Source: Streptomyces sp. NBC_01262 (GTDB lineage: Bacteria; Actinomycetota; Actinomycetes; Streptomycetales; Streptomycetaceae). From it: a DNA stretch of 64,000 bases. Each line of letters opens with the position of its first letter. The stretch's first letter is position 1. The notes beneath the pieces are model-generated. The model did not search any database, was not told where the DNA came from, and worked only from the letters and a program-made list of their open reading frames with translations. The position numbers were made by a program, and so were the translations under genes. The stretch is from assembly GCF_036226365.1 (NCBI RefSeq), contig NZ_CP108462.1, positions 6,542,501 through 6,606,500 on the forward strand, given 5' to 3'. Of the stretch, positions 26,718 through 30,389 are shown piece by piece.

Positions 26718-27302
26718 CTACTTGCTGACGGCGAAGCGCATCAGGGCGTTCTCGTCACCCTGCTTGATCTTCCCCGTCGTGTTGATCACCTCAAGCTTCC
26801 AACTGTCGCCGACCCGCACGGCCTTGGCCACGGCGCAGCCGTTGTCCTGGGTGAGCAGACTCGGCCAGATGTCGGCGACCTGCGTAGAGCTGCCCCCAGT
26901 CCCGTCGTAGACCTTGAAGCTGACGTTGCGCGCCTTCTGGAAGGAGCTGCCCTTCTTGTAGGCGGCGGCGATGAACACGATCGACGTGATCTGGCGCGGT
27001 ATCTTCGCGAACTCGACCGCCACCGTCTCGTCGTCGCCCTCCCCGTGCCCGGTCTGGTTGTCGCCGCTGTGCACCATGGCGCTGTTGCCCATGGGGTCGA
27101 GGGAGTCGAGGCCCGCCAGGCGCACGGGCTCCCCGCCCTGCATGGCGATGGCGATCAGGTCGAGGTCGGTGCCGGACTTACGGCGGAGCGTGCCTATCAA
27201 GCCGCCGCTGCTGCCTGCGGTGGGATCCCAGGACACCCCGATGGACAGATGGGTCACTCCATCCAGATCCGCCGGGCCGTCTTCCTTCGTGAGCGTAATC
27301 AT
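26718..27302 (-). CDS. TerD family protein
   Basis: The 194-residue protein begins MITLTKEDGPADL and carries the TerD landmarks GVSWDP, DLDLIAIA, DSLDP, HSGDNQTGHGEGDDE and IVFIAAAY. The Asp-rich loops bind calcium in studied TerD proteins, which act in tellurite resistance and in stress or phage-related membrane complexes. The ATG at 27302 fits the family start. The gene lies just downstream of, and in the same direction as, the TnpB element. That element's right end is only about 20 bp from its start, so its original promoter has probably been displaced. Confidence 0.9.
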   Translation of the reverse strand: MITLTKEDGPADLDGVTHLSIGVSWDPTAGSSGGLIGTLRRKSGTDLDLIAIAMQGGEPVRLAGLDSLDPMGNSAMVHSGDNQTGHGEGDDETVAVEFAKIPRQITSIVFIAAAYKKGSSFQKARNVSFKVYDGTGGSSTQVADIWPSLLTQDNGCAVAKAVRVGDSWKLEVINTTGKIKQGDENALMRFAVSK

Positions 27303-27321
27303 GAGTGGATCATCCTCTTGT

Positions 27322-27420
27322 TGACTGCTCCCCTCCCTGAAGGGAGGGGAATCTCTCCTTCGGGGCTGAGCGGGGATTCCTAGCTCACGCCGCCTGCCCA
27401 GGCGGCGCCTGGGCAGGTCT
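27322..27420 (-). ncRNA. predicted TnpB right end / omega RNA (reRNA) region
   Basis: On the minus strand the end of tnpB runs into a chain of hairpins. A perfect stem GCCCAGGC/GCCTGGGC lies at 27396-27414, inside the last codons. GGAATCCCCGC near 27370-27380 is followed by CCCTCCC-TGAA-GGGAGGG at 27331-27348, then GGGGAGCAGTCAA. This matches the usual IS200/IS605-type right end in Streptomyces (AATCCCC, hairpin, GGGGAGGATGTCAA). In studied TnpB systems this region yields the guide RNA, with the next bases as guide. The exact ends are approximate. Confidence 0.6.
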
Positions 27421-28614
27421 TCCACGATCAGCACTAGCCGGGTTCAGACCAGCCCGGATAAGCATCACACGTGCGGAGTTCTTATCCCTCGGGGATACGG
27501 TTCCGCAGGCGGTGCAAGTGTAGGTGCGCTCTCCCAGCGGCAGTGCGTGCTTGGCTCTCGCTCCGCAGTGCGCGCAGTCCATCGTGGTGTACGCGGGGTG
27601 TACCAGGTGCACGGCACGGCCGTGCTTACGGCCCATCTCGATGAGGGCCGCCTTGGTGGCGCCGATGGCGGCGTCGGCGGCTTTGCGGGCCATCGAAGTC
27701 TTGGCCAGGAACTTCGGCTTGAAGTCCTCCACGGCGAGAGCGCTGTGGTTGCGGGCCAGGGACTTGGCCCACTTGCGGGCGGTGTCCTGGCGCTGTCGGG
27801 CGACCTTCTTGTGCAGCTTCGCGGCCTGCTTCTGCGCGGCCTTGTAGCCGTTCGATCTGGCCTTTCCCTTCTTGGGCTTGCGCCGGGCCATCATCCGCTG
27901 GTGGCGCGCGAGCCTTTGGGCGGCCTTCTTGCCGTGCTCGGCGTGGGGCAGGTCGTGGAGGTCACTGGTGGTGGTCGCGGTCTCCTTGACACCCCAGTCG
28001 ATACCGATCACACGCCCGGTCTCCGGAAGCGGCTGCGCCTCGGCGGGGACAACGAACGAGCAGTACCAATGACCGAGGCTGTCCTGACAGACGCGCACTG
28101 AGGACGGGGCGGTGAGCAGGTCCCTCGACCAGACGACCGTCAGCACGATGCCTCCGGCCAAGTGCAGACGTCCGTCCTTGAGGCGGAATCCGCGCTTGGT
28201 GTAGTTGAGGCTCGGCAGCGACTCACGTTTTTTCTTGTACTTGGGCATCCCGGCCCGGCCTGCCATGGGCAGCCGGTCCTTGATGTCTTTCTGTGCCTTG
28301 GCGCGGGACTTGCCGAAGTCCCGGATCAATTGCTGCTGCGGAACGCTGGAGCCCTCACGCAGCCACGTTGTACGGGCACGGGCCTCGGTCAGCATCTTGT
28401 CGAGCTGCGCTGGACCGCAGGTGCTCTTGTCTGTGTCCTCGGGGCGGTTCTGGTTCCAGGCGTGGGCCTGCTTTGACTTGGCCACGCACTCGTTCCAGAT
28501 CCACCGGCACCGGTCCCACTCCGCCGTCAGTGCGGCGAGCGCGGTGGACGACACGCGAAGCCGGAATGTCCACCGGGCGTGCCCGGCGTCTTCCGTTTCC
28601 TTTAGTGTCGTCAT
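27385..28614 (-). CDS. TnpB-type RNA-guided endonuclease (IS200/IS605 OrfB)
   Basis: The 409-residue protein has an N-terminal helical/WED-like region and a split RuvC nuclease with Asp206 (GIDWG), Glu296 (AVEDFK) and Asp377 (RDKNSA). The zinc ribbon Cys347-x2-Cys350 and Cys367-x2-Cys370 lies before the last RuvC motif. All expected catalytic residues are present, so it is probably active as a TAM-dependent, guide-directed nuclease. No TnpA Y1 transposase is encoded. ATG at 28614 is six bases from a TATTAT -10, predicting a leaderless mRNA. The C-terminus overlaps the omega RNA hairpins. A ribbon-helix-helix gene diverges from it. Confidence 0.92.
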   Translation of the reverse strand: MTTLKETEDAGHARWTFRLRVSSTALAALTAEWDRCRWIWNECVAKSKQAHAWNQNRPEDTDKSTCGPAQLDKMLTEARARTTWLREGSSVPQQQLIRDFGKSRAKAQKDIKDRLPMAGRAGMPKYKKKRESLPSLNYTKRGFRLKDGRLHLAGGIVLTVVWSRDLLTAPSSVRVCQDSLGHWYCSFVVPAEAQPLPETGRVIGIDWGVKETATTTSDLHDLPHAEHGKKAAQRLARHQRMMARRKPKKGKARSNGYKAAQKQAAKLHKKVARQRQDTARKWAKSLARNHSALAVEDFKPKFLAKTSMARKAADAAIGATKAALIEMGRKHGRAVHLVHPAYTTMDCAHCGARAKHALPLGERTYTCTACGTVSPRDKNSARVMLIRAGLNPASADRGRPAQAPPGQAA

Positions 28615-28631
28615 GCCCTCATAATAGCACC
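28615..28631. promoter_or_regulatory. overlapping divergent -10 elements between tnpB and the RHH gene
   Basis: Only 17 bp separate the two ATG codons. On the plus strand CATAAT (28620-28625) is followed by six bases and the RHH ATG. On the minus strand TATTAT (28626-28621) is followed by six bases and the tnpB ATG. The two -10 hexamers share five base pairs, so one polymerase at a time can open this site. Both transcripts would be leaderless. Confidence 0.65.
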
Positions 28632-28847
28632 ATGATCGATGAGGTACGCATGACTCTCCGACTCCCCGAAAACCTCCGTGACCGGTTGCGCGCTCACGCA
28701 AGGTCCGAACGCCGGTCCCTCAACTCTGAGCTGGTGTACATGCTGGAGGTTGGCCTCCGCGCCATGGGAGCAGACGCCGAGTCGCCCGGCGGCGATTCGG
28801 CTTCGCCTGCCCCGCTACGCGGGAAGCCGGGTTCCTCCCCCGTCTGA
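28632..28847 (+). CDS. ribbon-helix-helix (Arc-like) protein divergent from tnpB
   Basis: The 71-residue protein reads MIDEVRMTLRLPENLRDRLR at its start: a beta strand (VRMTLRLP) and two helices ending SLNSELVYMLEVGL. This is the RHH fold of Arc/CopG/Omega regulators. The last 20 or so residues are Gly/Ser/Pro-rich because the frame runs through a structured DNA/RNA element (28798-28857). It probably binds the 17-bp divergent promoter and controls both itself and tnpB. It could instead be an orphan antitoxin-like protein. Confidence 0.75.
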   Translation: MIDEVRMTLRLPENLRDRLRAHARSERRSLNSELVYMLEVGLRAMGADAESPGGDSASPAPLRGKPGSSPV

Positions 28848-28857
28848 TGGCCGGGGC
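28798..28857 (+). repeat. structured element over the 3' end of the RHH gene, possible element end
   Basis: CGGCTT (28798-28803) pairs with AAGCCG (28824-28829), enclosing CCCGC/GCGGG (28811-28823). A second, weaker CCCC/GGGG pair spans 28837-28856, with the RHH stop codon in its loop, followed by GGGGCATCCTCC. The layout resembles the hairpin-rich right end of tnpB, but on the other strand. It may be the left end of the TnpB element or an independent RNA. Confidence 0.4.
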
Positions 28858-28949
28858 ATCCTCCGGTTCGTCGGTGCGAAGTGTGCCTGTAGGTTCCGTC
28901 GTTCCATACGTCAGGGCCACCGTGTCCCACTGAGAGAGGTCAGACGGCA

Positions 28950-29486: not shown

Positions 29487-30389
29487 ATGCATGAACGGGG
29501 GAACTACGAGAAATACGACGCGGCGCCGTCCGGCGACGGCTGCCTGACCGCCGCGATACGGCTGCCCGTGCGGATCGTCGCGCTGGTGATCCTGCTACCG
29601 GTGCGCATGGCCTGGGACGCGCTCATGGCTCTCGGTCGCGCCCTGAATCGGTATGCGCTCGCCCCGGTCGGACGTGCGATTGCCTGGCTGCTGCGGTGGC
29701 TGCTTGTGGTGCCGGCGGTTGCGCTCTGGCGGTACGTACTGGCGCCGGTGGGACGGCTGCTGGGCGCGGGGTTGGTCTGGCTGTGGCGGTACGTGGTCGC
29801 GCCGGTGGGACTCGGTCTGGCCTGGCTGGGCCGGGTGCTCGTTGTCCTACCGCTGGTCGCCCTGTGGCGATACGTCGTCGTGCCGGTGGCGCTCGGCCTG
29901 GCCTGGGCACTGCGGATGTTCGGTGTAGGTCTGGCGTGGCTGGGCCGGGTGCTTCTGGTGGTGCCGCTGGCCGCGTTGTGGCGGTACGTACTGGCGCCGG
30001 TAGGGCGCGCGCTCGCCTGGACGCTCGGGATGCTGGGCGTGGGGCTGGCGTGGCTGGCGCGGGTGCTCCTGGTGCTGCCGCTCGTCGCGCTGTACCGGTA
30101 CGTGCTCGCGCCCGTCGGCCGTGAGATCTGGGCCGCTCTGCGGTGGGCCTGGCGCGTCGCCGGGTACATCTCGCGCGCCCTCGGGCGGGTGCTGGCATGG
30201 CTCGGCCGGGTGCTCGTTGTGGTGCCGGTGCGGTGGGCGTGGCAGACCCTCGTCAGCCCGGCGGGCCGCTGGCTGCGGCAGAGTGTGTGGTGGCCGGTCA
30301 AGCGAGCCCTGGCCCAGGCCCGCGACACCGTCCGCCAGGTCCGGGCGGACGTGCGTCGGGCTCTGTTCGGGGTCTCGGAGGACCGGTGA
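29487..30389 (+). CDS. repetitive hydrophobic membrane protein with RY-x3-PV units
   Basis: The 300-residue protein is built from about six copies of a unit centred on RY-x-LAPVG: RYALAPVGR, RYVLAPVGR, RYVVAPVGL, RYVVVPVAL, RYVLAPVGR and RYVLAPVGR. Between them lie hydrophobic or amphipathic stretches such as LAWLGRVLVVLPLVAL. Spacing between units is about 22-45 residues. Trp and Arg are strongly enriched, and the C-terminal 60 residues are basic and soluble. It probably lies along or in the membrane, but no transport or catalytic motif is visible. It ends in a GTGA overlap with the VOC gene. I do not recognise a family with known function. Confidence 0.7.
   Translation: MHERGNYEKYDAAPSGDGCLTAAIRLPVRIVALVILLPVRMAWDALMALGRALNRYALAPVGRAIAWLLRWLLVVPAVALWRYVLAPVGRLLGAGLVWLWRYVVAPVGLGLAWLGRVLVVLPLVALWRYVVVPVALGLAWALRMFGVGLAWLGRVLLVVPLAALWRYVLAPVGRALAWTLGMLGVGLAWLARVLLVLPLVALYRYVLAPVGREIWAALRWAWRVAGYISRALGRVLAWLGRVLVVVPVRWAWQTLVSPAGRWLRQSVWWPVKRALAQARDTVRQVRADVRRALFGVSEDR

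Follow-up and report, generated by a model that had tools for sequence, protein, structure and literature searches.

A ribbon-helix-helix gene divergent to tnpB in a Streptomyces insertion element: a candidate autorepressor over two probably leaderless promoters

How are two divergent genes transcribed from a gap of 17 bp, and what would such closeness mean when one of them encodes an RNA-guided nuclease? The question is raised by a locus of Streptomyces sp. NBC_01262, which was analysed within a stretch of 64,000 nucleotides (contig NZ_CP108462.1, positions 6,542,501 to 6,606,500), referred to below as the window. The gap at 28615-28631 of the window, GCCCTCATAATAGCACC, separates tnpB on the minus strand from the gene of an Arc/Mnt-type ribbon-helix-helix (RHH) protein on the plus strand. 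It is bordered by the two start codons, CAT at 28612-28614 (tnpB, minus strand) and ATG at 28632-28634 (RHH gene).

The element and its two genes

The tnpB gene (27385-28614, minus strand) encodes a protein of 409 aa with Pfam matches to OrfB_IS605 (7e-17) and Cas12f1-like_TNB (7e-12). Its product scored 243 bits with the NCBIfam model guided_TnpB (cut-off 100) and matched the solved TnpB structure 8bf8 with an E-value of 5e-27. The RuvC residues D, E, and D and the CxxC pairs of the zinc finger were present, as read by eye from an alignment to 9yyg. A longer tnpB frame from TTG at 28701 was judged unlikely, as it would begin within the RHH gene. The whole element, delimited by eye against its relatives, covers 1553 bp (27321-28873, minus strand). 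Its right end reads TTGA on the plus strand and TCAA on the tnpB strand (27321-27324), and closure in TCAA was seen by eye in all 23 rows compared; TCAA was a frequent cleavage site in a six-species survey (PMC9956272). The flank after the left end was TCAC in 15 of 18 rows compared by eye, the exceptions being L018, L031, and the window, which has GTGC on the plus strand and GCAC on the tnpB strand (28874-28877). The window copy may have a mutated flank or may have moved differently. Both the TnpB residues and the characteristic ends are those of the tnpB-only (IS1341-like) members of IS200/IS605.

The omega-RNA is likely encoded at 27308-27456 (minus strand), comprising the 3' end of tnpB and the right end of the element. 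Rfam matches on the tnpB strand were weak: sot0042 at 27329-27455 (23.1 bits, under the cut-off of 88, E 0.003) and HgcC at 27308-27456 (21.2 bits, under the cut-off of 50, E 0.059). A TerD-domain gene (26718-27320; Pfam 7e-17) starts 19 bp past the right end, and the would-be guide stretch therefore covers its translation start region. A clean empty site was not found, and the orthologous intervals without the element differed in other genes too. In the same interval of genome G014 (L158), two short genes resembling by eye a VapB/VapC-type pair replace the TerD gene and the element, and in genome G010 (L159) hardly anything lies between the orthologues of the genes on either side. The place may be a hot spot for insertions. 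Further along the window (29487-30386), a hydrophobic protein of 300 aa with repeated WRYVLAPVGR-like units is encoded, which had no Pfam match at E 0.001.

The RHH gene (28632-28847, plus strand) consists of 71 codons and a stop codon. Its product carries the RHH domain expected of an autorepressor of this fold (Pfam Arc, 1.2e-8, over the gathering score), and phmmer matched it to AlgZ (3qoq, 4e-5) and Mnt (1mnt, 0.021); these two, whose structures are solved, are regulators that bind DNA. The internal ATG at 28650 was rejected as the start, because L054 does not have this ATG and the homology begins at the upstream start. As judged from the positions of both ends, the gene lies inside the element, between its left end and tnpB. 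There it occupies the place where IS605 has tnpA, a gene that this element does not carry, and the frame of its 3' part runs through left-end DNA in the window copy and in some of the gap classes described below. Matches to Y1 transposases were found elsewhere in the genome (five full-length and further partial ones), including one gene divergent to another tnpB at 7.20 Mb, so mobilisation of the element in trans is possible. The window copy of the RHH gene is under purifying selection, with dN/dS values of 0.05 against L070 and 0.10 against L016 (45 codons); eight other pairs of RHH genes gave 0.09 to 0.59.

Promoter geometry in the gap and in related loci

The first-pass annotation had described two face-to-face -10-like hexamers in the gap, and both were confirmed at their coordinates on both strands. 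The tnpB hexamer is TATTAT (28621-28626, minus strand), lies 6 nt before the ATG, and is preceded by TGC. The hexamer of the RHH gene is CATAAT (28620-28625, plus strand), also 6 nt before its ATG, with the TG extension absent in the window copy. Five base pairs (28621-28625) are common to both. In S. coelicolor, TANNNT is the -10 motif and leaderless mRNAs arise from 21% of primary starts (PMC4895711); on these grounds, the distance of six bases between -10 and ATG is the spacing expected of a leaderless gene. With TANNNT sought 6–7 nt before the start, the tnpB element fits, and that of the RHH gene has C in the first position. Both genes are thus probably transcribed without leaders, as the 6-nt spacing suggests. 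For RNAs beginning at the A of each ATG, the two starts would be separated by 18 bp, which is the most frequent distance in bidirectional bacterial promoters (PMC10268837). A consensus scan of 28500-28760 revealed no sigma-70-type promoter with a -35 element.

The combined pattern CAT-N5-Y-A-NNN-T-A-N5-ATG had one match in the window and none in 100 dinucleotide shuffles. The genome (9,736,065 bases) contained two matches, both at tnpB/RHH elements, and none of the reversed control pattern. The ATG of the second match opens just a 15-codon frame, which is not the RHH frame, so at that element only the tnpB side counts. At least one match was present in 244 of 297 genomes of the family, hence the pattern as such is not rare; open frames of at least 50 codons on both sides accompanied five of 32 matches (31 loci translated), the window included. 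One-sided matches are therefore common and two-sided gene pairs uncommon in the translated sample. Separately, many genomes of the genus share a conserved stretch, CCCATCATAGAATGATG, that precedes a gene whose product of 429–501 aa mostly begins with MRDDE (L210-L213, L218-L221, L224-L226, L229, L233, and L236); there, the frame opened by the opposite ATG is just two codons long.

For the comparison of gaps, 88 loci with an RHH match were inspected, and 18 of them were set aside by hand as unrelated, truncated, or having no usable start. The remaining 70 gave 59 non-redundant loci, 58 with a gap. RHH starts were set by hand in 11 loci and gaps in six (L122 had none); other gaps were picked from a list of classes. 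The gap was 14 bp long in 3 loci, 17 bp in 15, 18 bp in 2, 28 bp in 13, 29 bp in 9, 45 bp in 2, and 50 bp in 14, where L131 and L136, counted at 29 bp, belong to the 14-bp and 28-bp classes, which makes four loci of 14 bp and 21 of 28/29 bp. Across all these classes, -10 elements stand at a fixed spacing before both genes. The motif TANNNT precedes the tnpB start in 48 of 58 loci (6 nt away in 45 and 7 nt in 3). Before the RHH start, YANNNT (T or C first) occurs at 6–7 nt in 55 of 58 loci and TANNNT in 32, and at the control offsets of 8–25 nt before the same 58 RHH starts TANNNT was found four times in all. The leaderless placement proposed in the first-pass annotation is in this sense upheld by sequence, with -10-like elements kept before both genes in the relatives.

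Within the 17-bp class (15 loci), position 7 of the gap is A in 14 of 15, positions 11 and 12 are T and A in all 15, and position 6 is C in 13, while positions 8–10 are nearly free (0.25–0.63 bits). A lack of conservation of the shared -10, which had been named in advance as speaking against it, was accordingly not observed in this class. The near-invariant -11A and -7T common to both strands, with the middle three positions free, are the signature of a symmetric bidirectional -10 element in the predicted promoters of this class; no variation was seen at positions 14 and 17 or in the start codons either, which is what an operator or a start context would also show. In the 17-bp and 18-bp loci together, each -10 is present in 15 of 17, and a TG-N extension precedes nine of the 15 -10s on each side, only that of tnpB in the window. 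Sharing is not a general principle, however, since gaps of 28–50 bp with separate -10s occur in 38 of 58 loci. The putative sharing is a compact variant, one of several spacings within a wider tnpB/RHH layout. The gaps of 17, 28, and 50 bp differ by 11 and 22 bp, that is, by about one and two helical turns; the gain of operator units in phase may account for this.

The -10 at leaderless distance is associated with the RHH gene. It was found in 48 of 58 tnpBs with RHH versus 24 of 64 relatives without a usable one (TANNNT at 6–7 nt; Fisher P 4e-7 with loci taken as independent, redundant loci kept in the set of 64 and a few loci with broken RHH genes included). Among the RHH-less loci (L044-L048, L051, L053, L057, L059, and similar), TGTCAGT and, 6–7 nt before the start, TAGGTT are often seen and could represent a second, RHH-free type of leaderless promoter; in many of the 24 loci just counted, the TANNNT motif follows a TGTCAGT stretch, as judged by eye. 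In many other RHH-less tnpBs, the start is preceded by a G-rich stretch resembling a Shine-Dalgarno sequence, without such a -10.

Distribution of the pair and candidate operators

A second tnpB/RHH copy (L002) is present in the same genome, with tnpB about 80% and RHH 58% identical to those of the window and a gap of 28 bp. In the TnpB scan, the best 80 of 353 loci were nearly all from Streptomyces, and 22 of these 80 had an RHH match by iterated profile, a few of them broken. Searching 394 genomes of the family with the RHH protein yielded 66 places in 45 genomes. In 56 of the 65 loci examined among them, the RHH gene was divergent to tnpB; the other nine comprised seven weak or unrelated matches and two loci (L012 and L030) without tnpB in the examined stretch. 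A class-wide profile search gave matches in 188 of 394 genomes, mostly weak. All ten of the better matches tested (E up to 3e-9), nine of them outside the family of the window, were divergent to tnpB, and in the 14 weak matches L182-L195 TnpB was absent from the examined stretch. The pairing thus recurs in other actinobacterial families and with distant TnpBs, some only 26–30% identical to that of the window. The pair is also found, at gaps of 14 and 17 bp, on one plasmid of Thermobispora bispora and one of a Streptomyces, where the public annotation reads 'transposase' and 'Arc family DNA-binding protein'. Moraxella plasmid matches were discarded (a longer Arc-type protein, tnpB absent from the stretch). 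The first-pass annotation had suggested looking for a divergent RHH gene at the same spacing; the pairing recurred in relatives, and 17 of 58 loci have a gap of 17 or 18 bp.

Presence or absence of RHH changed at least 20 times on a FastTree phylogeny of 101 TnpBs, and gap class 15 times; with 36 of its 98 inner branches drawn open, this tree was used just for counting changes. The RHH gene has therefore often been lost, gained, or exchanged, and many tnpBs are without it.

The suggestion that the RHH protein sits on the gap DNA agrees with operator-like repeats beside both starts in many relatives, and the window copy itself has them only weakly. The proposed operator region of the window (28601-28641) extends over both -10s and start codons and is weakly symmetric. 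In an alignment of the five nearest loci, the invariant segments are GTGTC, CAT, TAATA, and CACCATGA; the GTGTCGTCAT stretch doubles as tnpB coding sequence, which counts against the operator reading. The half-site score of the window, 3 of 8, is below the permuted mean and likewise speaks against it. Perfect inverted repeats of eight bases beside both starts were found in L176 and L175 (ATGTAGCC twice and ATGGTCCC twice), which are from other families and have distant TnpBs. In L020, L022, and L169, half-sites match at seven of eight bases, and the GGCTAC class has direct repeats. Over 64 loci, half-site likeness within a locus was 4.84 of 8 versus 4.32 after permutation, a value reached in none of 2000 permutations; by gap class, the observed value was equalled or exceeded in 37 of 2000 permutations for gaps of at most 18 bp, in none for 28–29 bp, and in 110 for 45 bp and above.

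The type of repeat varies with the ribbon residues that align with positions 6, 8, and 10 of Mnt, with the reservation that the motifs were chosen after looking and that ribbon and operator types track relatedness. GGTGT was present in 22 of 30 R-T-R loci and in none of nine R-A-R or five N-N-R loci, GATGTC in 9/9 R-A-R and 1/30 R-T-R, and TGGCT in 5/5 N-N-R and 3/30 R-T-R. In the window, GGTGT is absent and CACCA occurs once.

Possible roles of the RHH protein

The best reading of the locus, to which we assign a probability of roughly two in three, is that the element encodes an RHH autorepressor which would act at candidate operators over two leaderless promoters and so cap the nuclease. It rests on the fixed spacing of the -10s, the bidirectional signature of the 17-bp class, the divergent linkage, the association of the leaderless -10 with RHH, the half-site likeness, the association of repeat with ribbon, the DNA-binding relatives of the RHH protein, and the location of RHH within the element. 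Besides the low half-site score of the window, what speaks against it is the weaker half-site excess within gap classes, the many tnpBs that lack RHH, and the leaderless-looking -10 in about a third of the tnpBs without it. A tnpA-less IS605-type element would thus carry its own repressor gene at the place of tnpA. The two genes would be transcribed back to back from -10s lying 6 nt before each start, probably into leaderless mRNAs. Most likely, the RHH protein would bind the repeats over both -10s and start codons and repress both genes, its own included. The nuclease would then be made briefly, on arrival of the element or when RHH is low, and kept low afterwards. Where the gap is 17 bp, the two -10s would form one symmetric element, so that polymerase should be able to fit in just one orientation at once.

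Mutually exclusive transcripts, as claimed in the first-pass annotation, are plausible in the 17-bp geometry, where the -10s overlap with reciprocal -11A and -7T and the starts would have the 18-bp spacing usual for bidirectional promoters (PMC10268837). That the locus works chiefly as a switch, with two orientations of polymerase competing at the shared -10 for nuclease or regulator and RHH biasing the outcome, nevertheless seems unlikely to us. A switch of this kind cannot be a feature conserved in the family, since in the 38 loci with longer gaps the pair and its two -10s persist although the hexamers lie apart; joint repression of the two genes by RHH would be simpler. We also consider it improbable that RHH acts mainly on mobility, by binding the ends or as an accessory to a transposase working in trans, or directly on TnpB. 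Its position in place of tnpA and the Y1 transposases elsewhere in the genome would suit such a role, but the candidate binding repeats are at both starts, the region that the search covered.

The hexamers might instead be by-products of operators, with leadered transcripts coming from true promoters further upstream in the opposite gene. The consensus scan, with its lack of a -35 combined with a -10, would fit this, as would the initial C of the RHH -10 in most 17-bp loci, but the spacing of 6–7 nt persists before 48 tnpB and 55 RHH starts of the 58 loci despite differing operator repeats and gap lengths, which makes leadered transcription a very improbable account. Hardly any credence is given to RHH as a decaying passenger with no present role. 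In its favour are the 18 of 88 RHH-match loci set aside (unrelated, truncated, or lacking a start that could be used), the frequent gain, loss, or exchange, and the dN/dS of up to 0.59 in some pairs; against it stand the low dN/dS of the window gene, the conserved promoter spacing, and the linkage with distant TnpBs.

A further reading, possible rather than likely, is that RHH types act as immunity groups, so that a resident RHH would silence an incoming tnpB with the same operator type. Diversification of ribbon and operator would then go hand in hand, much as it does in phage immunity. In the present genome, the R-T-R element (17-bp gap) and the N-N-R element (28-bp gap) would be able to coexist because they would belong to different groups.

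The gap of the window resembles the symmetric bidirectional promoters of Warman et al. 2021 (via PMC10268837) in its reciprocal -11A/-7T and in starts that would be 18 bp apart; unlike those described in PMC10268837, it would serve protein genes in both directions, probably without leaders. The element shares with IS200/IS605 (divergent tnpA/tnpB) and with the IS1341 type a guided TnpB, the TCAA right end, structured ends, and a divergent gene beside tnpB, and it differs from IS200/IS605 in having an RHH gene instead of tnpA. By sequence, its RHH protein belongs to the fold family of Arc/Mnt/AlgZ-type repressors, and it likewise has a candidate operator between divergent genes; P22 Mnt acts between divergent promoters. 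Unlike these repressors, it comes from an insertion element, its partner is an RNA-guided nuclease, and its binding to DNA is predicted. TldRs are TnpB-derived RNA-guided repressors that have lost the nuclease residues. The locus is like them in linking TnpB to transcription control and unlike them in that its TnpB keeps the RuvC residues in the alignment, the presumed regulator being a separate protein. The parts are known; their combination, tnpB paired with an RHH gene, was not found described among the literature matches listed, which covered few subscription papers or bioRxiv preprints.

TnpB nucleases are regarded as the ancestors of Cas12, and to our knowledge little is known about how elements limit their own nuclease. 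To test the proposed repression, a protein of 71 residues and about 60 bp of DNA would suffice, and the natural sets of operators and ribbons would serve work on specificity. With a candidate repressor encoded by the element itself and accompanying tnpB in several actinobacterial families, the limitation of the nuclease would become testable.
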